A program made the translations under genes and the position numbers. This document shows, one piece after another, positions 9,072 through 50,690 of a stretch of 64,000 bases of DNA. Every line of letters begins with the position of its first letter. The stretch's first letter is position 1. Origin of the DNA: Lytechinus variegatus (taxonomy: Eukaryota; Echinodermata; Echinoidea; Temnopleuroida; Toxopneustidae); NCBI RefSeq assembly GCF_018143015.1, contig NC_054740.1:69775356-69839355 (forward strand), given 5' to 3'. A model generated the notes under the pieces. The model made no database searches. It worked only from the letters and a program-made list of their open reading frames with translations, and was not told where the DNA came from.

Positions 9072-10150
9072 GTCTCACCTGCGAAGCAAAGTGAGACTAT
9101 AGTCGCCGCTTTTCCGACGGCGGCGTCAACATCAAATCTTAACCTGAGGTTAAAGTTTTGAAATGACGTCATAACTTAGAAAGTAAATGGACCTGGTTAA
9201 TAAAACTTGGCCATAAGGTTAATCAAGTATTACTGAACATCCTATTAGAGTTTCATGTCACATGACCAAGGTCAAAGGTCATTTAGGGTCAATAAACTTA
9301 GACCATGTTGGAGGAATCAACATCGAAATCTTAACCCGAGGTTAAGTTTTTGAAATGTCATCATAACTTAGAAAATATATGGACCTAGTTCATGAAACTT
9401 GGACATAAGGTTAATCAAGTATCACTGAACATCCTACATGAGGTTCACATCACATGACCAAGGTCAAAGGTCATTTAGGGTCAATGAACTTTGGCCAAAT
9501 TGGGGATATCTGTTGATTTCCCCTCATAACTTTGAAAGTTTATGGATCTGATTCATGAAACTTGGACATAATAGTAATCAAGCATCACTGAAAATTTTGT
9601 GCAAGTTTGAGGTCTCATGATTAAGGTCAAAGGTCATTTAGGGTCAATGAACTTTGGCCGAATCGGGGGTATCTGTTGAATTACCATCATAACTTTGAAA
9701 GTTTATTGGTCTAGTTCATTAAACTTGGACATTAGAGTAATCAAGTATCACTGAACATCCTGTGCGCGTTTCAGGTCACATGGCCAAGGTCAAAGGTCAA
9801 TGAACTTTGGCCGAATTGGGTGTATCTGTTGAATTACCATCATAACTTTGAAAGTTTATGGATCTGATTCATGAAACTTGTACATAAGAGTAATCAAGTA
9901 TCACTGAACATCCTGTTCGAGTTTCAGGTCACATGATCAAGGTCAAAGGTCATGTAAGGTCAATGAACTTTGGCCATGTTGGGGTTTTTTGTTGAATAAC
10001 CATCATATCTCTGTAAGTTTATTGGTCTAGTTCATAAAAAGTGGACATAAGAGTAACCATGTATCACTGAACATCTTGTGCGAGTTAGAGTAGTATTCAA
10101 AGTCAGCACTGCTGCTATATTGAACCGCGTGATGCAGGTGAGACGGCCAG
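9072..10150. mobile_element. Element with gtctcacctgc ends and internal 163-bp tandem array
   Basis: The ends are inverted (gtctcacctgc at 9072, gcaggtgagac at 10134-10144). The inside is about five tandem units of 160-185 bp, each with the phrase ggtcaaaggtcatttagggt, a Met/Leu-free stretch and cataactttgaaagttta. There is no coding frame. This looks like a non-autonomous DNA element carrying a minisatellite. A shortened relative is at 26232-26620. Confidence 0.65.
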
Positions 10151-23656: not shown

Positions 23657-25396
23657 ATCAAATAAGGGCAAGATGAGCTTATGTCGTGGCATGGCATCCG
23701 TCGTCCGTCCATAATTTCAAAATGCTACTACTTCGCCATTTCAAGTCCGATTTCAATTCTGTTTGCTTTATATGATAGCATTAGGTGGGGGATTCAAAAC
23801 TTCTACACAGAATTTTGAAATTCATTAAATATGCTAATTTATGTGCATTTTTCAAAATTCACAAACTTAAATGCTTCTTTATTTGTTCACCGATTTTGAA
23901 TTTTTTGCTTCCATCTGATAGACCTTCATGAGATGAGGTTCACCAAACTTCTACACAGAATTTTGACATTTTGACCAGAACAATTTTTATGCTAATTTAT
24001 GTAAAATTTATGCATATTTTTAAAAATTCTCATAAAATGCTTCTTTATTTGTTGACCGATTTTGTTTTTTTTTTATTCCATCTGGTAGAGCTTCATGAGA
24101 TTCACCAATCTAGTACACAAAATTTTGAAATTTTGACTAGAACAATTTTTATGCTAATTTATGCAAAATTGATTTATGCATATTTTGAAAAATTCACATT
24201 AAATGCTTCTTTATTTGTTGACCGATTTTTATTTTTTTCTTCCATCTGGTAGAGCTTCATGAGGTTCATCAATCTCCTACAGAATTTGGAAATTTTGACT
24301 AGAACAATTTTCATGCTAATTTATGCAAAGTTAATTTATGCATATGTTTAAAAATTCACATAAAATGCTTCTTCTGTATTTGTTGACCGATTTTGATTTT
24401 TTTTCTTCCATCTGTAGAGCTTCATGAGGTTCACCAAACTTCTACACAGAATTTTGCAATTTTTTCAGTACAAAATTACTTACGCTAATTTATGCGAAAT
24501 TTATTCAGAAATCACAGAATATACCTCTTCTTTATTTGACAGATTTTGATATTTTTTCTTTCATCTGGTAGAACTTCATGAGGCCCATCAAACTTCTACA
24601 CAGAATTGAAATTTTCGGTAGAAAATTGTGTATGCCAATTTATGCGAAATGTATTCATAAATCACAGAAAATGCCTCTTTATTTGTTGACAGATTTTGAT
24701 TTTTTTCCATCTGGTAGACCTTCATGAGGCCCATCAAACTTCTACACAGAATTTTGAAATTTTCGGTAGAAAATTACGTATGCCAATTCATGCGAAATGT
24801 ATTCATAAATCACAGAAAATGCCTCTTCTTTATTTGTTGACAGATTTTGATTTTTTTTTTTAGGTTCTCCAAACTTGTACACAAAATTTTTAAATTTTGT
24901 CTGGAAAATTATTCTAGTTTATGCAAAAGTTATTCATAAATCACAAAAAAAAATGTTTTTTCTTCATTTGTTGATCAGTTTCAATTTTGTCTGCTTTATA
25001 TGATAGCTCGAGGTGGTGATACAAGATTTCAAAATAGAATTTTGAAACTCATTAAATATGCTAATTTATTCATATATTTTCAAAACTCACAAAAATTACC
25101 TATTTATTTATTGATTGATTTTGGTTCTTTTTGTTCCATTTGAGAGCTACATTACATGTAGGTTCACCAAGGTTCTACACAGAGTTAAGAAACTGACTAG
25201 ATTATCATAACTTAATTTATATGAAATTTCTTCATAGATCACAAAAATTGCTGTGTCATATCTTCATCAATTTCAATTTTATATCAATTTATGTCACCAA
25301 TATAATTCACTAGAGTGTCAACTGGGCTGAAATTAAAATTGTGTTAATTTTTTTGGGAGATGCCGGATGAGCTCCACATCATTGATGTGCTAGTTT
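23657..25396 (+). mobile_element. Second copy of the agctcatcc element, longer array
   Basis: Starts in the head (gggcaagatgagctta, then gtccgtcc) and ends in gccggatgagct plus ccacatcattgatgtgctag, exactly as the copy at 16343-17475. It holds about nine 150-bp units against five or six there. The extreme left end is not visible. No coding frame. Confidence 0.75.
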
Positions 25397-28137: not shown

Positions 28138-31100
28138 CTACCAAGTAGATCTCTGAGCGCCTGACATGTTCCCTATATCAGCAATGGATCTCCACACAAT
28201 ACGACTGAGTCTCCATTTCTTGAGGACAGATCTTGGTCTTGAAGTGATGGCACATCGGTCACGTATCCTAACGTGACAACTGTCTCGAGGGAAACTAGCT
28301 ATCTCTTGATCTGCAACTTCCTGCAAAGAGAGCATTGATAAAATGGTTATGATCAATTAAAAAAAGAACATAGTTGTATGATTGCAATATTAATCATGAT
28401 TTAAAGCACAACTGATTCTATCATGAACATAATTTGGGGAAGATACAATCTTTGATATTGCCTTTCCATTTCACTGTATGTAATCAACTTGTATTAATAA
28501 TAATACTGATGTCATATTTTACCCAGGGTAGCCACTTCAGTTCCCAAACTATTCTATCAGCAGGCCCTGCTTAACATGATTATGTTATTATCATGTATTC
28601 ATGTCAAGATTAACTGCATTATATTATCATACTCCAAGGATGTTATACTTACATGTATTCATTTGCCAAGGTTTATGTCCAGTCTAAGGTACATGATGCA
28701 AATATCAAGGAAAATACAAAAACTACAATATGAGTAAAAATATTGGAAAATTTTCATTTTAACTTCTACATGTATTTGTATTTTCCTTTTGAACATTTTT
28801 GAGCGATTTAATGTAGAATTGAAATGCATAATCTTTACGTGGAAATGAGTGTGATACTAGCACTCAATAATAATAAATCACACAAAAACAAAAAGTAATG
28901 GTAAAATAGACTTACCCGTATCTCATCAGGAAGAATGGTGTTCTTGCGAATACAGTTGATCCGTAGTCTGTCCCTATGATGTTCTTTAACAAGTCGTCTT
29001 CTTTTCACATCTCTAATCATCTTCCAATCAGCATAGTATGACCTGGTCAACATGGCACCCACAGCATTCAAAGGGTTACTGCACTGTAATTTCATTGAGA
29101 AAAGCATAAAAACTTAGCAAAAATGTCATCAAATCTGATATTCAAAATGGCAATTATTTCTGTATATTGGGTTCCTAAATACAAAATAGGTCTAATAGTT
29201 AGATTTTGATGAACCAGTAATCATTACATCAAAACATTTGTAAAGGTAAACGTAACGTAAACATAGCTCAGGCTTACTATTGCTGTAGGTTCGGCCAGAA
29301 TTATTGTATATTAATCGTGTACATGTAAGTTGACCTTAAGTAGATCAAAGAAAATAGCACAAAGAAACTGACAATTATCACAAAATTTGCTACCTTTTCC
29401 TACTTTTCTGTTTAGTTTATTTCTTCTTTCTACTTATTTTCAAATTTCTCTTTCCCTTTCTTCTTCCATTTCTTATTTCCTTTTATTTTTCTTTTTGCTT
29501 TTCATTTGTTTCTTTCTGTTTGTGTCTTTGTTGAACTTTCTTTCTTTTTTCCTTTCTCTTTCCTTCTTTCTTTTTCTAATTTTGTTTCTTTGCTTTTCTT
29601 CTGATGAATTATTAAGTTGCTTGGACTCTTAGAATGCAATGCAACTTGATCGTCCATTTAGAACAAGACATCGTTTAGAATAGCAAAATAAAAATTATAA
29701 TTGTAATAATAACTAGAGATGCTCGGCAGGTCACGCAGCCGAGCACATGCATCCCCCGAACCTACCGCGTCATCCGTCATTGCGATATATAGAGCTCACA
29801 CAGATATTTGACAAATAAATACAATTGTCATGGCGAAAATGACCCTGCCCACATATTGCCTGTGGGTACCAAATTTGATGACAATAATATGACGTAGCAG
29901 CATGACTCTGCAGAACCTAAAATATTGTCCAGCATCACCTGTTGGGGAATAAAATTATAGAGTAATCTGCATATATTTTATAAATGGGCAGGTCCAAGCT
30001 ATTGTCCCCTCTGAAGCCAAAATTAAATCTTTGCCCAAATCTAACATTTTGTAGGTCATTTTAAAGCTTACACTCTGAAGTTTTTCATCCTATATTTTTT
30101 TCTTCTGAAAACATATACTTAATGAAGGTCACAAATTTCAGAAATCATTAATTAGCGTGATGTACGGGGACATAACATTTTTTAATCTGCAGATAATGCA
30201 AATCATATATTATACAAATATACCAGGCTTTGAGTAAGTATAGCGGGAATTATTTTCAGAGGTTGGACTGGAATTACTATTTTAGTAATTTGGCCAGTAC
30301 AACCGAGGATAAATAATTCCCTATATACTTTCGAAATAAAGGCCTGGTATATTTGTTTTATATCCTACATTTAATAAGGCATATAGAACAGTAGTCTACC
30401 TACTCTTGTACAAGAAGATCATCTTTTCTTAGCACGCTGCGCAGACTGATCTACTTTTCCTGAAACCACGTGCTCAGCGGAATGCAGATTTGTGCCTGCG
30501 CCGTCCCTTCACGGGACTTGCCTGGTAGATTCAACTCGTTGACCGGTGCGCCCGAGAGATTGCATGATCTGTGTCAATGATCTGTGACGTCAATGATGGA
30601 ATAGTCGACTATTCCATCATTGACGGCACGGAATAGCACATTTTCTTCGGTGGGCGTTTTATTTTTGGACATCATCGCAAAATAGTGGGAATATTCTTGG
30701 TCACATGATGCCATTTTCTCATGCCATGATCTGCTTAATCATATATATTTGAATTCCCAATTTCTATTGCAAGTTTATTTAAAGATGCCCCTTTCATTAC
30801 TGTTCAACACCGAGGTGTTAATTTTTTACTATGTTATATTTCTCCAATTTTGCAGTGGTATTTTTTTCTAATACATCTCAAGACTATCTAATTAATTATT
30901 TTGGCACCCTTTTCAGTATTCCCTTTTGTAACGTGCAATATTTTGTGAAAGAGTATTTATATATTTTTTTTTATGTCTTGGGAGCGGCATGTGTGGGGGC
31001 TCATGCCTTCGGGCAACAGTGATGTATTTCGCTTTTGTGCCCCCTGACCCACATGCCGTTCCCGCATTTCTTTGCATGTTAATGTACTGTAAATTTCATT

Positions 31101-34100
31101 CTAATGTAATGTGTATGTACTTTTTATATTGGTCAAATAAATAATAATTTAAACCAATTAGCATACAGGATTTAATTCATGTAGGATATAATTGAAAATA
31201 TTTCTGTTGGGACTTGTAGTGCTAAGTTCACGCAAACATTTGAGAAAAAAAAATGATTTTGAAAATTGATTAAGTTAATTATCTGGTATCCAACAGGCAG
31301 CGTCCCGTACGTCACAATTTAGCATATTTTTTTATTCTAATTAAGGAAAAGTTGAACAGTTTTCTTCACTCTTTGGAGAGTTCTATTTATATTACTATAT
31401 ATCCAAAAATTCAAGCAAATTTACTGAATTAATTTCATGTTTAATTATATCAGCTAATTAAGCTTTGTGACATACGGGACAAATGTGTGACGTACGGGAC
31501 ACACTATACTTTATACATAGGATTTCTATGTAATTTTAATTAGGTTTATTTTTCAATTAGGAGCAAAGATAAAGTAAATTGAGATAAATGATTTTATATC
31601 AGTGGTTGAATATTGATAAAAGGCTGATAATAAAGTCATGATTTGTAATAAATAACAAGGGTACATATATTAGCATATATGTTAACATGTGTTATTAATT
31701 AAATATTTCATAATTATTAGGTCATAAAGTTTTTTTTATGTTTTGTTTAATCATATACTATAATAGAAATATATATCAATCATGATAATCTATGTAAAAC
31801 TTAGTTAATTATAAATTTTGATAAAATTTCACTTTCCCCATTCGTTTAAAACATGAAATTATTTGCAAGACATCTTTTATAATATTTAAAAGGTCGTAAA
31901 ATGTTTGCTATGTTTTGTTTCAGTGTATGGTATTAAAGAAATTTATATCAATCATGATAATCCATGTAAAACTTAACTTACTTTGGTTTACATCAAGTTT
32001 CATCATAAATTTTGATGAAATTTCATTTTCCCCATTCGTTTTATACATGGACAAATGTCCCGTACATCACATGTCCCGCACGTCACAGCATGGATGTTTA
32101 TATTTTGAGCTATTACATAACAATGAGTTCTATGATTTCATTCATGGCTAATGAAACTTTATAAGATACAAGATGAAAACATGATGAGAGATTTCCAGCT
32201 TATTCCAATTCAAAGAGTTTTAATGACAAACTTTTTTTCAAAAAAATCAGCTTTTGTCTGGTCCCGTACGTCACAGCGCATATTAATTAAAACATTACAT
32301 CGTTAATGGAATTTTAGATCACCAATTTTTCTACTGAATAAAGAGGGCACAACTGGCCGTCCAAAATCCATAAAAGATTCTCTGTTGTGCATTTATTTTT
32401 TATGTTACACAACTTTAAAGTCTCTAAATATCCCGTACGTCACAAGTCAAATAGCTTAGACCTGCCCAAACCTAACCCTAAGACCCCCCACCAAAAATGA
32501 TAGGCATCTTCGCTTCACATTCTAATGTTGCTTCTGTGTGCTAACTGTTATGACAAACAGGAAAAAAAGCAGAAGTTACAATGTCTCTGCCCACGCCAAA
32601 ATCGATAGGCAGCTTCGCTATACCACACTGAACCTTCATGCCACATTTGAAGATGATCGGACAAGAAATGCAGCTGGTAGAGCGCTTACAAGGACATCTC
32701 TGCTATTTCCACATAAACTCTTGTTACCATGGCAACGATGTCTCCGCCCAAACCAAAATCAATAGGCGGTTTTGCTCTACCATTTTACCATAATGGACCT
32801 TCATGCCACATTTGAAGATGATCGGAGAAGAAATGCAGCTGGTAGAACACTCACAAGGACATCTCTGCTATTTTCACAAAAACTTGTTACCATGGCAACG
32901 ATGTCTCTGCACACGCCAAAATCGATAGGCGGCTTCGCTATACCGCCGATGCAGAAATGCAGCTGAAATAGCGCTAACATGGAAATCTCTGCGGCGGACA
33001 CAGATGCGGCGCGACGAGGCCAAATCCATAGTTTCCTCCGCTCTGTTCGGGGGATACAATTAATCAAATATAATGATACCAGATATTTGACTAATTTCCG
33101 ACATTTCTACGCTATTGATTTTATTTTTAGACAAGAATTCATCAAAAAAATGAGAAAAATATCATGAAAAGACGGAAGAGACTTGCCCGATGTTTACGCT
33201 GCCATCTTGTTTCTATTGTTCTTCACCCATGATACAGACACTCGCGTAACTTTGGGGAAGAACAATAGGAAACAAGATGGCGGTGTAAACATCGGGCAAG
33301 TCTCTTCCGTCTTTACATGATATTTTTCTCATTTTTTTTATGAATTCTTGTCTAAAAATAAAATCCACAGCGTAGAAATGTCGGAAATGAAGTTGTTATC
33401 ACATGATTTAGGGCTAGATCTTTTACAAAGTAGAAATCTCGGGGGCAAAAGTTTCAGGTTTTATGGTGGTACACACAAATGTATAGAAAGGAAGACCTGG
33501 GGTGGTATTCTGTAACTCTGTCATAACTTTTGTCATAAATTTTGTCATTTCTCTCCGAGATGTGACACCGCTATGATTGTCACAAATCGGTATTCTGAAC
33601 ATTGTCTTTTCCCTGTCATATCTCTCAAAGTTCCCGCCCATCTTTTCGGAAGCAATCCAATCAAAATCATCGTTAGTTCCCAGTGGGAGCCCTTCTAGCC
33701 AATAGGAATGCCCCGTGACAGGTAGGGGGTATTCCCAATTCTGTTGGTGGCATCGCGCAACTACGCGAATATTGATGCGCTTAATTACAAAGAGAGACAG
33801 GGAGCTGTGAAGGATTTTAGAGGAGAAGTAGAAAAATAAGGAAAACAGAGAAAAAAAAGAGAAATTGATATGTAGGGCCTAACTAATTGTAGCATGAAAA
33901 AATAATTTTAAAAATTGTCGTGGATGATGAGTGAAACTAATACCACAATCTAATCTAAATGATATCGTTATATGCTTGACATTCAGTCGGCAGGGTATCG
34001 GGATATTTGGTACTAAAAGATATGACAAAATTTATGACTGCTACCCCCTGTCATAACTTTTGTCATATCTTTTGCTTGTATAAAAAGATTACGCGCATTA

Positions 34101-36739
34101 AAGCCGCGTATTTTTGGTGCGCGCCAAAGAGATAAGACAAAATTTATGACAATTTTTGTGACAAAAGTTATGACATCCACCAGAATACCGATTTTGTCAT
34201 ATCTCTGAGATAAGATAAAATATGGAGATAAGACAATGTTCAGAATACCGCCCCTGGCTTCGTATTAGAGTAACCTTACATTAGTAAATCTCTAGAAGCC
34301 TCCTGCCTAGTCTTGAGGACGCAATGATGATTTTTTTAGAGATGTCATATACTTCTTCATCATTGACGTCTTGACACTCTCTCCATAGTGTCTTCAGCGA
34401 AGGACCAAAACAAACATGGATTCCCCAAAAAAATCCATCTTTTTAAACCGAACTCACTAGAATTTTGTTAATTTTGTTAATTCTTACACCTTCCTACGCC
34501 TAATGCGTAGGAAGGTTTTAAATATTACTTTTAAAAATGTAAAAAAATGAAGATTTCTTACCTAACTGATGCCGCGTAGACCCCTCGTTCCACATGTAAA
34601 CAACGGAAATACAATAGCGTCAACCCTTGAACCGCTTATGTATGATGTACTTCCGGAAAGCAATGCCGTATTAACGAACAATATAGAGATAAAAAATCTT
34701 ATTTAACAAATATTAAAATTTATTTTGTGATCATAAATAATTTATATCATATATATAAATTATTTATGATCACAAAATAAATTTTAATATTTGTTAAATA
34801 AGATTTTTATATAAATTATTTATTTATTATTTAACAAATATTAAAATTTATTTTGTGATCATAAATAATTTATATATATGATATAAATTATTTATGATCA
34901 CAAAATAAATTTTAATATTTGTTAAATAAGATTTTTTATCTCTAAATTGTTCGTTAAGACGGCATTGCTTTCCGGAAGTACGTCATACATAAGCGGTTCA
35001 AGGGTCGACGCTATTGTATTTCCGTTGTTTACATGTGGAACGAGGGGTCTACGCGGCATCAGTTAGGTAAGAAATCTTCATTTTTTTACATTTTTTAAAG
35101 TAATATTTAAAACCTTCCTACGCATTAGGCGTAGGAAGGTGTAAGAATTAATAAAATTAACAAAATTCTAGTGAGTTCGGTTTAAAAAGATGGATTTTGG
35201 GGGGGAATCCATCTTTGTTTTGGTCCTTCGCTGAAGACACTATGGAGAGAGTGTCAAGACGTCAATGATGAAGAAGTATATGACATCTCTAAAAAAATCA
35301 TCAGTGAGTCCTCAAGACTACTCCTGCCTGGCTAGTCGGCACTTGACAGGTGAATGAACTTTCTTAGATTTCTTGTGTGGAGAAATCTTTGAAAACCGAG
35401 ACAGTCCCTGTAAACTGGGACGATCCCAATTATCTGACCAGCACCTCTATTCCCATACATCATAACCTTGTTCATAGAATGAGTGCTCTATTCCTAACAT
35501 TAAGAGTAAGCCTACCGACTGTCCACTCACACATTGTACGAGGTTAGTATGTACTAACCTCGTACAATAGACCGTGTTTGACCCTGGATTTCGAAGTAGT
35601 CGGCAAACATCGCTTCATTGCTGAAGTAATATTTGCCGAAGCTCCTTCTCGCTACGCACCGGGGCTCTTGCCGGTAAGTAGCAATAATTTGTTGAATATG
35701 AAAATAATAATAAAATAATAATCCGATAAAAAAAGCACATTTTGCTTACCTCGGCCTCGAAAGTGACTTCGCTTGTCTCTTCCACGGAAATACAAGGAAG
35801 CCCGTTGGTGGCGCTAATAATTTCACAACCTTGATTCAGCTCCTCGGTAATTTTATAACTGTATCTAAATTCTTTGAATGCACAATCCTCATGATTAATT
35901 TACTAATTATGGGCACCAATTAATGAAATGCCTTCAAAAAACATAATGATTATTATTGGTGATGATAACACTCATTTGCATTAATTTAAAAAGATGACTG
36001 ATAAAAAAAAATGAAAATAATATACGTGCCTGGAAAGAAACCAGCAGTACAAGCTTTGACGAACGTCAATAATACGTATACGGTATACCAAAGTCTATAC
36101 AATGAAAAGATTGGACACTTCACGGACTTTGCGTAATGCCTTGCGTCGATATGCGTGTAAAATAGTGTAGGTGCCTATTCTTTCCCTTGTCGTGTCTTTG
36201 ATATGAATATAAATCGCGCGCCCTCTTCAGGAGAAAATTGATATCAACGCTGACTGATTTCTACCTCCGTAAAATCTTCACTAAAGATCAAGAAAATATA
36301 CATATTTTTAGAAAGAAACTTCAAGGAGAAGTCACGGAAGGATCTAAATGATTCGGTAAGTGTCATAGCAGGATGTGGAATATTTATTTATACATAATAT
36401 TTTATGTGGGCAAAAGCCCACTGTATTTTGGAAGTGTAGTTGTGTGTCGCGTGCGTATGACTGATAATCCTTCGCTCGCGAGACGATATGAACCCATGGG
36501 TGCCGACTGTCATGACTGTGACTGTGTATGGCCAACACAAAATCGAATGACGTGGGACCGAACTACTTCACTAGGCTAAGAAGTAACGTTTTAAACTAAG
36601 TTTTAATTATTGCATTTATTTCCTTAAAAATTAACTAAAACTATTGATTCGTACTTACCGAGTGTGAATTAGATAAAATATGAAATCTACATAGTGTACC
36701 CCGCAATGAATTTGAGCAGATTCTCAGGACACTTTCCAT
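28138..36739 (-). CDS. MRPS14: Small mitoribosomal subunit protein uS14m
   Basis: Three coding exons on the minus strand: 36739-36659 (27 codons), 29083-28916 (56 codons) and 28320-28138 (60 codons plus stop). All join in phase 0 with GT-AG sites. The 143-aa product matches vertebrate MRPS14: [15 protein letters not shown] (about 43-57), [15 protein letters not shown] (about 68-82), then [18 protein letters not shown] and [11 protein letters not shown], ending GAQRSTW. These are the rRNA-binding blocks of S14; the zinc cysteines of some bacterial S14 are absent, as usual for the mitochondrial form. Exon 1 encodes [20 protein letters not shown], rich in Arg and Ser with one acidic residue, as expected of a matrix-targeting presequence. 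An upstream in-frame ATG at 36793 would add 18 residues including acidic ones. The start at 36739 has the better context (aaaatgg). Intron 1 is 7.6 kb and full of palindromes. Confidence 0.93.
29395..29640 (+). repeat. Pyrimidine-rich tract in MRPS14 intron 1
   Basis: About 240 bases are mostly ttct and tttc on the plus strand, ending in a ttcttctgatg. The Leu/Phe/Ser-rich open frame through it is a composition effect. Confidence 0.65.
30213..30357. mobile_element. MITE with acaaatataccaggc ends
   Basis: Left end acaaatataccaggcttt and right end aaggcctggtatatttgt are inverted. The inner parts (gcgggaattattttc against ataattccctatatac) also pair, giving a foldback element of about 145 bp. 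Non-coding. Confidence 0.6.
30588..30625. repeat. Perfect 38-bp palindrome
   Basis: Two 19-base arms without a spacer, centred on gtcgac. Each arm contains gtcaatgatggaatag. It overlaps a tgacgtca-like CRE word at its left edge. Confidence 0.9.
31200..32460. repeat. AT-rich segment with repeated cccgtacgtcac motif
   Basis: The 12-mer cccgtacgtcac or a one-base variant occurs at 31304, 32059, 32075, 32263 and 32432. It occurs inverted (gtgacgtacggg) at 31467 and 31487. About 190-bp units with atttatatcaatcatgataat and ttccccattcgttt are repeated between 31730 and 32050. No open frame. Lies in MRPS14 intron 1; family not recognised. Confidence 0.7.
32575..32990 (+). repeat. Tandem repeat of about 158 bp, 2.5 units
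   Basis: Units begin with atgtctctgcccacgcc and caaaatcgataggc, and contain catttgaagatgatcgga and gaaatgcagctggtag. Starts near 32579, 32739 and 32899. Short frames through it repeat the same peptide, but there is no start, stop or splice pattern that suggests a gene. Confidence 0.75.
33095..33388. repeat. Inverted repeat, arms about 130 bp
   Basis: The left arm (about 33095-33228) and right arm (about 33259-33388) are reverse complements with few mismatches and a loop of about 30 bases. The right arm contains aagatggcgg (33274-33283), a YY1-type word common at housekeeping starts. The right-arm sequence also continues into the dispersed element shared with 10865-11185. Confidence 0.85.
33500..34253. 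mobile_element. Harbinger-like MITE, 754 bp, CTG duplication
   Basis: Inverted ends gggtggtattctg and cagaataccgccc, with CTG on both sides (33497-33499, 34254-34256). The interior has recurring tgacaaaatttatgac words in both directions. The host repeat exists uninterrupted at 10865-11185, where the site reads acctggctt, so both ends are fixed by an empty site. A 3-bp duplication and G-rich ends suit PIF/Harbinger; a 5-bp reading (cctgg) is also possible. Confidence 0.8.
34308..35320. repeat. 1-kb near-perfect palindrome with nested palindromes
   Basis: tagtcttgaggac at the left pairs with gtcctcaagacta at the right, and the pairing continues to a centre near 34814, giving arms of about 500 bp. 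In stretches I compared, mismatches were a few per cent. The central 240 bp are two smaller AT-rich palindromes (about 34695-34812 and 34830-34935) around tgtgatcataaataattta words. Each arm also holds an outward-facing cassette: ccggaagt, an ATG-led frame of 11 codons (35033-35066 on +, 34595-34562 on -) and a gtaag donor. A second small hairpin, ccttcctacgc/gcgtaggaagg, lies in each arm. It sits in MRPS14 intron 1. Confidence 0.9.
35533..35568. repeat. 36-bp palindrome
   Basis: attgtacgaggttagta and tactaacctcgtacaat pair across a two-base centre. A splice-branch-like tactaac word lies in it. Located 200 bp beyond the 1-kb palindrome. Confidence 0.85.
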
Positions 36740-46463: not shown

Positions 46464-48123
46464 TTAGACGGGAGTTGTTGTTTTTACAACAAAAGTTTCC
46501 GGTTGCGTACGAGCGATCATTCCTAGCGGTTGTTGTGGATAGTGTACAGATGTAGCAGTTACTACAGGCGTTGCCGACGAGTTGCCCGTGTCATCACCGT
46601 GACAGCAACACCCCTGGCAACATTTCAATCCTCTGCAGCAATACACCGAAGCAACGATAGCGACGATGCCTTCGATGAGGAGAAGGACAGCGCCGACGGC
46701 GTGGAGGATGATGGCGACGTCGAAAGTATCCAAGTAGCAGAATGTATAGAAGCAGACTGACTCGTAGGAGAACACGCCCGCCGCCAAGCCCTCAGTGACC
46801 ACGCCCCCAAACCCGCTGACGGAGGACAAAACTGACATGACAAGATATGCAATGATGACGCAGTTGCGTCGGGATTTCGTCGTGATTCCGATTATACCCG
46901 AAGGAATGACGGAGAAGAATCCGATGCCAATTGGTAAACCTTCGTTCGGGTAGCCCATGTGACCGTAAACGTAGGTGAGAACGTTGACGACGACGATGAC
47001 GATACCGAGAATAAGCTGGATGATGCCGGTAGTACGACCTTTAGAAAGAAAAAGGCAAGAGAACAATCGTGGTCGTACAAGGAATCGTTATTGGCCCAAA
47101 TTCTCAAAGGGTGGCTAACTTATCCCGGCCTAGGTTAGCCGATCGAGCTTCGAGAAATGCAAAATTTAGCCCGGTTGGCCAAAACGCGATTTAGCCCATG
47201 GGCTAACAATAAGTTAGCCACCCTTCGAGAAATCGGGCTATTATGGCTACTTATATAGAGACAATCAGTGGCGTAAATAAGTCAAAAATTTCGAGGGGCT
47301 CTTAATGGCACGCGTGGCCACATTTCTATAAAGTCATGAGAGAGCGAAGCAGGCATTTAAAAAAAATTGACCTTTTTAGAATAAATATCTAATGTTGTAT
47401 TAGAATTCGATCTCATATTCAGGAAACAACATCTTATATAATGGTGGAGGTGTCGTGGTCTAGTGGTTAACACCCTCGTCTTTCAATCTGAAGGACGTGG
47501 GTTTGATTCCAAGCCATGAAATATACCCACTGTGCTGCACTCAACCCAGGTGAGGTGAATGGGTACCGGCAGGAAGTAATTCCTCAAAAAGCTGTGCGCA
47601 CCGGAATTGGTAGGTCAGCTTAGCTGGGGTAATATAGGAGCGCCTTTTTATAATGACCCTAAGCCCCCCCCCCCCACCATTTTCATGTCAGTGGTTTAAT
47701 CTACAAGTTTCTGATATTCACATATCTTACGACAGAAAATGTGACGTTATTATGACCGACAGAGCAGATGTGGTTAGTCAACGGCATATCGTTAAACGAA
47801 AGTCGAAATTGTGACGTATGCAGTCATTAATGATCTTAATTGCAACTCAATCTACAAGCCCCATTATGTTGTATTTTTTTGATAATAATGTTCTACTATA
47901 TAGGCCTACTATCTTCAAACAAAATTTGAACATGATTGAATTATTGAAACCCCGTTGCCATGGTTACCATATACTGGATCAGCTCACCTGCTCTGATGTT
48001 GTATGTTTCTGAGTATCCACTACAACATCCTTGATGTGGTTGAGGTTGCACATAGATATATTGTTGAGTTGCTTGTTGTGGTTGTGTTGGATTTGGTACT
48101 TGTAGTGCTGGCTGCTGCTGCAT
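46464..48123 (-). CDS. MS4A/CD20-like four-helix membrane protein
   Basis: Two coding exons on the minus strand, 48123-47988 and 47038-46464, joined by a phase-1 GT-AG intron, give 236 aa. Residues 1-45 are a Gln/Pro-rich cytoplasmic tail (MQQQPALQVPNPTQPQQATQ). Four hydrophobic helices follow: about 50-70, 81-98, 104-130 and 152-178. The opening RTTGIIQLILGIV and the short GYPNEGLPIGIGFF loop before helix 2 are the hallmarks of the CD20-like (MS4A/TMEM176) family. Helix 4 ends in a Cys-rich patch (CCRGLKCCQGCCC, about 179-191) that could be palmitoylated. The tail is Thr/Val/Pro-rich and ends KTTTPV. Vertebrate members split helices over several exons; here one exon carries all four. Family roles include calcium signalling and chemosensation, but the role here is unknown. 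A MITE sits 50 bp from the acceptor, and a SINE is in the intron. Confidence 0.88.
47091..47241. mobile_element. MITE with gggtggctaactta ends, TTA duplication
   Basis: ttctcaaagggtggctaact at the left is inverted at the right as agttagccacccttcgagaa, with tta on both outer sides. The centre has paired ttagccc words. A length of about 150 bp and a 3-bp TTA site suit a Harbinger-type MITE. It lies in the intron of the MS4A-like gene, about 50 bp from the acceptor. Confidence 0.7.
47443..47632 (+). mobile_element. tRNA-derived SINE, antisense to the MS4A-like gene
   Basis: Head ggtggaggtgtcgtggtcta, A-box-like tggtctagtgg (47456-47466) and B box ggtttgattcc (47510-47520). The body holds tgctgcactcaacccaggtg and tgggtaccggcagg. 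It shows the tRNA-like part better than the other copies. Confidence 0.8.
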
Positions 48124-49119: not shown

Positions 49120-50690
49120 TTGGGTTAACTTTGAATCTCTATACCCAAAAATCGAGCATATGGACCCATTTGCATATTTGGAATATTCAGGTGCTAGAAT
49201 ATCTATAAATCATCATACTTTGCACATATACGTGCAAAGTATGATGAAAATGACATGGATTTTCAATGTTTGGGAGCAGGACTAAGGAACCATTTGTATT
49301 TTAGTCATTTTGGACGGTAATAGACTTGCCCGTTTTAGGCGCATTATAGACTGTTTCAAGCCAACTCGCAACACTTTGGACACTGATAGTTTAAAAAATA
49401 GCACACGGACCCCATATTTCTAATATTTTAACGTCATCAGAATATATTCTTCTGCAAATATAGAGATTATGATGAAAATGACATGGATTTTGAATGTTTG
49501 GGAGCAGAACTACGGAACCATTCGAATTTTAGACATTTTGGACGGTATTATCAGCATGATCAGACTTTTACTTGTTTTCGGCGCATTTTTGGGTGGTTTC
49601 AAGCCAACTCGCAACAGTTTAGACACTGATAGTTTAAAACTGAGCACTTGGATCCCATGTTTTTAATATTGTAACGTCATCAGAATAGATTCCTCCGCAA
49701 ATCTAGAGAGTATGATGAAAATGACATGGATTTTGAATGTTTGGGAGCAGAACTAAAGAACCATTCGAATTTTAGACATTTTGGACGGTATTATCAGGAT
49801 GATCAGACTTTTACTTGTTTTCGGTGCATTTTTGGGTGGTTTCAAGCCAACTCGCAACAGTTTAGACACTGATAGTTTAAAACTGAGCACTTGGATCCCA
49901 TGTTTTTAATATTGTAACGTCATCAGAATAGATTCCTCCGCAAATCTAGAGAGTATGATGAAAATGACATGGATTTTGAATGTTTGGGAGCAGAACTAAA
50001 GAACCATTCGTATTTTAGAAATTTTAGACGGTATTATTAGACTTTTGCATGTTTTCGGTGCATTTTAGACTGTTTCAAGCCAACTTACAACATTTTAGAC
50101 ACTGATAGATTAAAAACGAGCACATGGACCCAATGTTTTTAATATTGTAACGTCATTAGAATGTATTTCTCTGCAAATCTAGAGAGTATGATGGAAATGA
50201 CATGGATTTTGAATGTTTGGGAGCGAAATATGAAACCATTTGCATTTCAGACGGTATTATCAGACTTTTTGCTTGTTTTCGGCGCACTATAGGTGGATTT
50301 CAATATTTTCAAGCCAACTCGCAACACTTTAGTCACCAATAGTTTAACAAACAAGCACATGGACCCCATATTTTTAATATTTTGATGCCTTTAGAATATA
50401 TTCCTATACAAATCTAGAGAGTATGATGAAAATGACATGGATTTTGTATGTTTGGGGGCAAAACTAAGGAAGCATTCGCATTTTGGACGGCATTATTAGA
50501 CTTTTGCACGTTTTCGGCGCATTTTGGGCGTTTTCATGCCAACTCACATCAATTTGGACACTCATAGTTAAAAAAACGAGCACATGGACCCCATATTTTT
50601 AACTTCCCTACATCTTTGATATGCATTCCTCTACAATTTAGCCGAATTTGATGAAAATGACATGGATTTAGAAAAAAGTGCAGCTTCCAA
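49120..50690 (+). repeat. Satellite-like tandem array, about 240-bp unit
   Basis: Six to seven head-to-tail units each contain atgatgaaaatgacatggat, then atgtttgggagcag, ttttggacgg, ttttcggcgcatttt, tcaagccaactcgcaac and gacactgatagttt. The unit word starts near 49243, 49469, 49713, 49957, 50191, 50426 and 50650. The central units (49470-49960) are nearly identical and the outer ones are diverged. Open frames (such as 49469-49666) only reflect the unit. Confidence 0.9.

Follow-up and report, generated by a model that had tools for sequence, protein, structure and literature searches.

The palindrome at 34308-35320 of the window (the whole stretch of Lytechinus variegatus DNA analysed, 64,000 nucleotides) is one copy of an abundant family of non-coding DNA transposons with a foldback-like architecture. 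Taken as a whole, it is probably a non-autonomous, near-perfect palindromic transposon that is moved in trans by Mutator/Foldback-type machinery and carries a conserved outward unit. The near-perfect palindrome of about 1 kb reported in the preliminary description holds: the two arms (34308-34801 and 34827-35320) are 494 nt each, 98% complementary with 12 differences between them, and separated by a gap of 25 nt. The transposon begins and finishes exactly where the palindrome does: TAGTCTTGAGGA opens it at 34308 and the reverse complement, TCCTCAAGACTA, closes it at 35320, both being family-wide ends, and ctcctgcc flanks the palindrome on both sides as an 8-bp target-site duplication (Table 1). 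Such a duplication would be left by a palindromic transposon that inserted at this site. Direct duplication of its 110-bp inner palindrome makes this copy longer than is usual. This duplicated AT-rich centre is the sole Tandem Repeats Finder report inside the element, and no stop-to-stop frame of 55 aa or more lies within it. Beside the palindrome, a second inverted-repeat element occupies window 33519-34250 (33588-33611 against 34227-34250, 96%) and contains several TGTCATAA-type units.

Table 1. Positions in the window of the palindromic transposon copy, its parts and the MRPS14 exons
Feature	Position	Strand	Remark
Left target-site duplication ctcctgcc, 8 bp	34300..34307	.	identical to 35321-35328
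Whole palindromic transposon copy, 1013 bp	34308..35320	.	family-shared ends TAGTCTTGAGGA / TCCTCAAGACTA
Left terminal inverted repeat, outer 30 bp	34308..34337	+	among least divergent blocks, young arms
Left-arm hairpin, 29 nt	34488..34516	-	old vs young consensus: 0/32 sites differ
Left cassette, outward	34557..34656	-	ETS-like 34656-34649, decayed CRE-like site, ATG 34595, donor GTAAG 34561
Inner palindrome, first copy, 56-nt arms, 5-nt gap	34692..34808	.	
Inner palindrome, second copy	34827..34929	.	direct duplication of centre
Right cassette, outward	34972..35071	+	ETS-like 34972-34979, CRE-like 34979-34985, ATG 35033, donor GTAAG 35067-35071
Right-arm hairpin, 29 nt	35112..35140	+	old vs young consensus: 0/32 sites differ
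AATAAA just outside right hairpin	35150..35155	+	sequence read; left arm of window copy: AACAAA
Right terminal inverted repeat, conserved outer 30 bp	35291..35320	-	
Right target-site duplication ctcctgcc	35321..35328	.	
MRPS14 coding exon	28917..29083	-	tblastn, human protein query; acceptor/donor read
MRPS14 last coding exon	28141..28320	-	tblastn, human protein query; acceptor/donor read

The family is found throughout the same genome (869.6 Mb, 33 contigs). A search with the left arm gives at least 95 matched stretches (40 of 1007 candidates scored), with matches on contigs 1-19. With up to 3 mismatches allowed, there are 451 occurrences of a 30-mer from the cassette and 788 of the terminal 30-mer, against 0 for the reversed-pattern control of each. 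Family copies begin with TAGTCTTGAGGA and finish in its reverse complement; the end-to-end distance is 874-899 bp in 28 of the 47 end pairs examined. Long terminal inverted repeats make up most of the element, and relatives share the same architecture.

Target-site duplications accompany most copies. Among the 46 end pairs having both flanks (the row L061 lacks its left flank and is left out), 28 show a duplication of 9 bp with at most one mismatch, four an exact 8-bp duplication (the window copy included) and one a duplication of 10 bp with one mismatch. The background is low: no 9-bp match was seen in 423 shifted comparisons. L009, L010 and L012, which are among the 28, represent one nested insertion that was copied along with the DNA around it, so they do not count as independent. 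The remaining 13 pairs have no duplication in the frames examined; three of these join ends of different elements (L005, L064 and L078) and two are chimeric elements (L055 and L071). Many genomic sites, short target-site duplications and no coding capacity together characterise a miniature palindromic DNA transposon. The foldback-like palindromic family is real, but ordinary in kind; titles and abstract openings in the literature searched, a partial coverage, mention no comparable palindromic element from sea urchins.

Assembly of near-perfect palindromes is difficult, and 21 of the first 78 loci carry a single cassette, as might be expected if the structure were an assembly artefact (a hairpin read or an unresolved inverted duplication). 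Against this, the palindrome recurs across many sites, and most of these have a short target duplication of their own; an artefact is scarcely credible.

The two arms of an element have evolved together. In 31 elements with both arms (L078 left out), mate arms are 98.5% identical on average versus 95.8% between elements, and at 65 diagnostic columns mates agree at 0.92 versus 0.74 under random pairing. The mate is the best match for only 11 of the 62 arms, since an arm frequently has an even closer counterpart in a sister copy. Subfamily markers are mostly present in both arms of one element; the clear chimeras L055 and L071 have arm agreements of 0.43 and 0.74. From mate likeness and paired markers we infer that symmetry has been renewed during the history of the family. 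Either conversion between the arms or repeated re-mirroring of one of them would maintain their likeness. With subfamily markers paired in this way, it is a good family for studying how long palindromes keep their symmetry.

Duplication lengths place the family near the Mutator-like elements (MULEs), for which 8-10 bp, mostly 9 bp, is characteristic. The hAT and P superfamilies were set aside: hAT elements duplicate 8 bp of target and P elements 7-8 bp, and here 9-bp duplications are found in 28/46 pairs and 8-bp ones in 4. Classical Foldback elements have short tandem repeats inside their arms. In this element Tandem Repeats Finder reports no tandem repeat besides the duplicated AT-rich centre, and it is therefore called foldback-like and not filed as a classical Foldback. 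Composite arms with tandem repeats are mentioned in one source (PMC3169594).

A Mutator/Foldback-type transposase would move the family in trans, since the ends and the mostly 9-bp duplications fit. A partner sharing the family ends was not identified among one MULE locus of 31, one 5.6-kb end pair and four break-point patterns. The 31 are the genomic matches of a MULE-domain family search, and in the locus read (L079, G000:C3:36710000-36715500) the 21-bp family end is absent at up to 4 mismatches. The 5.6-kb end pair looks like a full element interrupted by an insertion; the 4.9 kb examined has no frame longer than 116 aa. The four patterns, each joining an end or arm to foreign sequence, occur at 1, 2, 5 and 154 places; by their letters most of these, among the matches listed, resemble decayed or length-shifted family copies, and at least C1:5452518, C5:9404684, C3:63203650 and C4:16791432 run into foreign sequence. 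L079 itself holds an open 494-aa frame with a MULE transposase domain, and the same score and frame length recur at C5:45207371 and C15:28645679, which suggests a recently active Mutator-like element with other ends.

The closest known systems each share part of this design. Tm1, a Mutator/Foldback family of root-knot nematodes, has inverted-repeat ends, mostly 9-bp duplications (8-10 bp in 45/53) and mostly non-autonomous members, and one of its classes carries a transcribed stretch with a hairpin motif, a further likeness. Its ends, in contrast, are tandem repeats of 13-15 bp with asymmetric outer motifs, whereas those of the window family are symmetric and free of such repeats, and it has a transposase-encoding copy, with none identified for the window family (PMC3169594). 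Tetris resembles the window family in the great length of its inverted repeats, in duplications of 8-9 bp around complete copies, in lacking conserved frames and in that no autonomous copy has been found; its arms have up to three domains with a middle domain of variable size, unlike the nearly gapless palindrome described here. Galileo (P superfamily) also has two-arm-only copies, solo arms and chimeras of two subfamilies, but its duplications are mostly 7 bp (7-8) and its transposase is known (PMC3573991, PMC4168063). Muta1 and other mosquito Mutator-like families match in their duplications of 8 or 9 bp, their slight sequence preference and their hundreds of non-autonomous derivatives; they differ in a known active transposase and, in most, sub-terminal tandem repeats (PMC5225508). 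Animal Pack-TIRs share the idea of a transposon with host sequence forming chimeric transcripts (PMC8277862); for the window family, two junction patterns found no clear parental host copy.

Each arm of the window copy carries an outward cassette, as first described: an ETS-like site, an ATG, 11 codons and GTAAG, in that order. In the right arm ccggaagt overlaps tacgtca (34972-34985), and in the left arm the CRE-like site has one base changed. The exact motif set, chosen post hoc, appears in 4 of 20,000 Markov-shuffled arms, and relaxed motifs in 1,955 of 20,000. The order and rarity of these motifs are what would be expected of a host promoter and first exon that had been captured a single time and then mirrored, which is how the cassettes were initially read. 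This origin is now very improbable. The arm is repeated hundreds of times, the cassette unit is also present in relatives about 24% diverged, and roughly half of the older arms lack the ATG. A single-copy source gene, proposed as a check, did not emerge: at up to 3 mismatches the cassette core stands beside non-element letters upstream at 0 places, and the exon end with its donor beside non-element letters downstream at 2, one of which can be read as a family copy that has lost one base. Neither junction pattern shows a clear copy outside the family (a source more than 3 bases off or with other break-points would escape both).

The relation to MRPS14 is looser than first proposed. Two coding exons were found on the minus strand (Table 1). 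The first exon did not turn up, which leaves the element, some 5.2 kb upstream, either in intron 1, as had been assumed, or in intergenic DNA. The left cassette does face towards MRPS14. Fusion at the protein level is rejected, which counts further against a host exon: joined to the exon at 29083 through either of two possible acceptors, the 11-codon frame runs into a stop 2-3 codons later. Any influence on MRPS14 is unproven and would act via a promoter, an untranslated leader or antisense/dsRNA. Outward transcription from the arms is plausible, and dsRNA from arm-to-arm read-through is structurally possible. Elsewhere in the window, a 207-aa frame on the minus strand (46464-47087) has a weak CD20-like match (E 8.6e-4; 19.8 bits against a Pfam cut-off of 27.9), and long tandem arrays lie at 49238-50602, 9359-10086 and 23836-24858, with units of ~243, 163 and 148-162 bp.

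Conservation across the family gives a different view of the cassette. One comparison uses the 66 young arms that whole-arm similarity had brought up and leaves out 26 more, of 92 in all, that came from exact-cassette-match loci. Of the 113 non-CpG sites in alignment columns 241-375, 2 have a variant common to 4 or more arms, versus 34 of the 240 that lie in columns 31-180, 213-240 and 376-443 (Fisher p ~1e-4, linked sites being treated as independent). Low-frequency changes differ little between the same regions (38 in 113 versus 108 in 240 sites, p 0.13).

Older relatives extend the comparison. The second element of L078 is a more divergent relative, 76% alike; together with 12 loci hand-picked from 67 matches it gives 19 arms and an older consensus, in which L081 and L082 are apparently duplicates, as are L083 and L084. 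The old and young consensuses differ at 4/30 outer columns (1-30), 41/150 in columns 31-180, 0/32 in the perfect hairpin (181-212; p ~5e-4), 9/28 in 213-240, 2/12 in 241-252, 7/39 in the donor and exon (253-291), 2/46 in 292-337, 0/15 in the ETS/CRE columns (338-352), 6/23 in 353-375 and 10/68 in 376-443. A 61-bp block at 292-352 (ETS/CRE plus the following 46 bp) has 2/61 differences versus 75/320 elsewhere (p ~9e-5), although it joins two adjacent low blocks post hoc and the Fisher tests treat linked sites as independent. It is tied for the least-changed 61-bp window, the median window having 11 changes. In L078 alone the cassette is not clearly distinct (identity 0.76-0.89 versus 0.78-0.79 for the centre).

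Individual motifs are kept unevenly in the 19 older arms. The ETS core is CCGGAAGT in 3 and CCGGATGT in 7; the ETS letters are exact in 3 and tacgtca in 9. The donor (GTAAG in 14, GT in 16) is kept about as well as its surroundings, and the ATG is in place in 9, with ATT in 8. Of the 92 young arms, 76 have AATAAA directly outside the hairpin, and of the 19 older arms 11 do; the anchor could not be placed in 1 young and 4 older arms. Going outward, an arm presents the promoter-like block, then the donor-like site, the hairpin and AATAAA. Selection on the 61-bp block during the family's spread is the simplest reading of these numbers, and the outward unit appears constrained, an unexpected feature absent from the preliminary description. 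Of the promoter-like cassettes proposed there, the promoter-like part has gained ground with the kept ETS/CRE block, hairpin and AATAAA, and the host-exon origin has become very improbable; of the counter-scenario named there, a high-copy transposon without transcription starts, the high copy number is what the genome holds (451 and 788 occurrences).

What the outward unit does can be read in two ways. It may be the element's own short transcription unit and not a host exon, a reading that we hold tentatively, somewhat short of an even chance; the ETS/CRE-like block, donor-like site, hairpin and AATAAA would then be kept for the element's own spread. In the same transposon, the 61-bp block and hairpin could alternatively be internal transposase binding sites or transposition enhancers, with ETS/CRE, donor and AATAAA coincidental and untranscribed, a possibility to which we give a substantial minority share of belief. 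Conservation of the blocks within each arm, in young subfamilies as well as older ones, an ATG that is not conserved and ETS/CRE letters that vary in older arms are all as transposase sites would allow, and the long inverted repeats of Galileo hold several transposase binding sites (PMC3688188). The block is, however, promoter-like in one orientation and followed by the hairpin and AATAAA, and tiny palindromes without it carry target duplications. Letters alone would not separate a promoter from a transposase site, and transposase binding is a serious rival. An snRNA- or spliced-leader-like RNA gene (donor, U-run, terminal hairpin) was also considered and dropped for want of support: an Rfam search gives 11 matches up to E 10, every one under its gathering score, and the alignment fold of the 19 older arms and the young consensus has the hairpin plus several short stems (-11.5 kcal/mol in total, covariation term -0.35).

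Shortened copies bear on the same question. Sixteen loci were hand-picked among the 100 terminal-30-mer matches listed: 12 single ends without a listed partner, 2 pairs below 100 bp and 2 of 762 bp. Eight are tiny palindromes of 73-119 bp with both ends. Five are of asymmetric type: four measure 762, 762, 768 and 542 bp, and the fifth, L097, shows no second end within its stretch. L099 and L108 have a partial second arm, and L106 has the outer 30 bp alone. The tiny palindromes carry 9-bp duplications that are perfect in five (L095, L096, L100, L102 and L105: 73-114 bp, with family ends and each its own centre), have one mismatch in two (L103 and L104, whose flanks match each other) and are missing in one. 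They have either moved without the cassette or shrunk symmetrically after insertion. The cassette may therefore be dispensable for movement, since cassette-less palindromes carry these duplications, possibly as products of later deletion.

Other loci show family copies in company. A larger non-coding repeat carries a nested one-cassette copy that is copied along with it (L009, L010, L011, L012, L017, L019, L020, L026 and L027), with up to ~3 kb common to these loci at 88-99% identity. The flank of the window palindrome, gtaaccttacattagtaaat...ctctagaagcc, read by eye, resembles the repeat around the nested copy in L017. In L072 a 356-aa frame, resembling a reverse transcriptase in its motif, begins at the right end of the element (from 2239).

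The family matters most for what its arms may do. If the promoter works, near-identical promoters would lie at hundreds of places in one animal genome, mostly paired and divergent. They would be a natural supply of new gene starts, of antisense RNA and of hairpin dsRNA, and the family would exemplify selection that acts on a non-coding transposon beyond its ends. If the block is instead a transposase site, it would point to deep internal recognition in a palindromic element. The strongest version, unlikely but worth stating, is that the lineage has kept a complete outward transcription unit in each arm through ~15-30% divergence and carried a divergent promoter pair to hundreds of sites. If true, the pair would perhaps keep element sites open in the germ line, and host genes would gain ready-made alternative starts on both strands.
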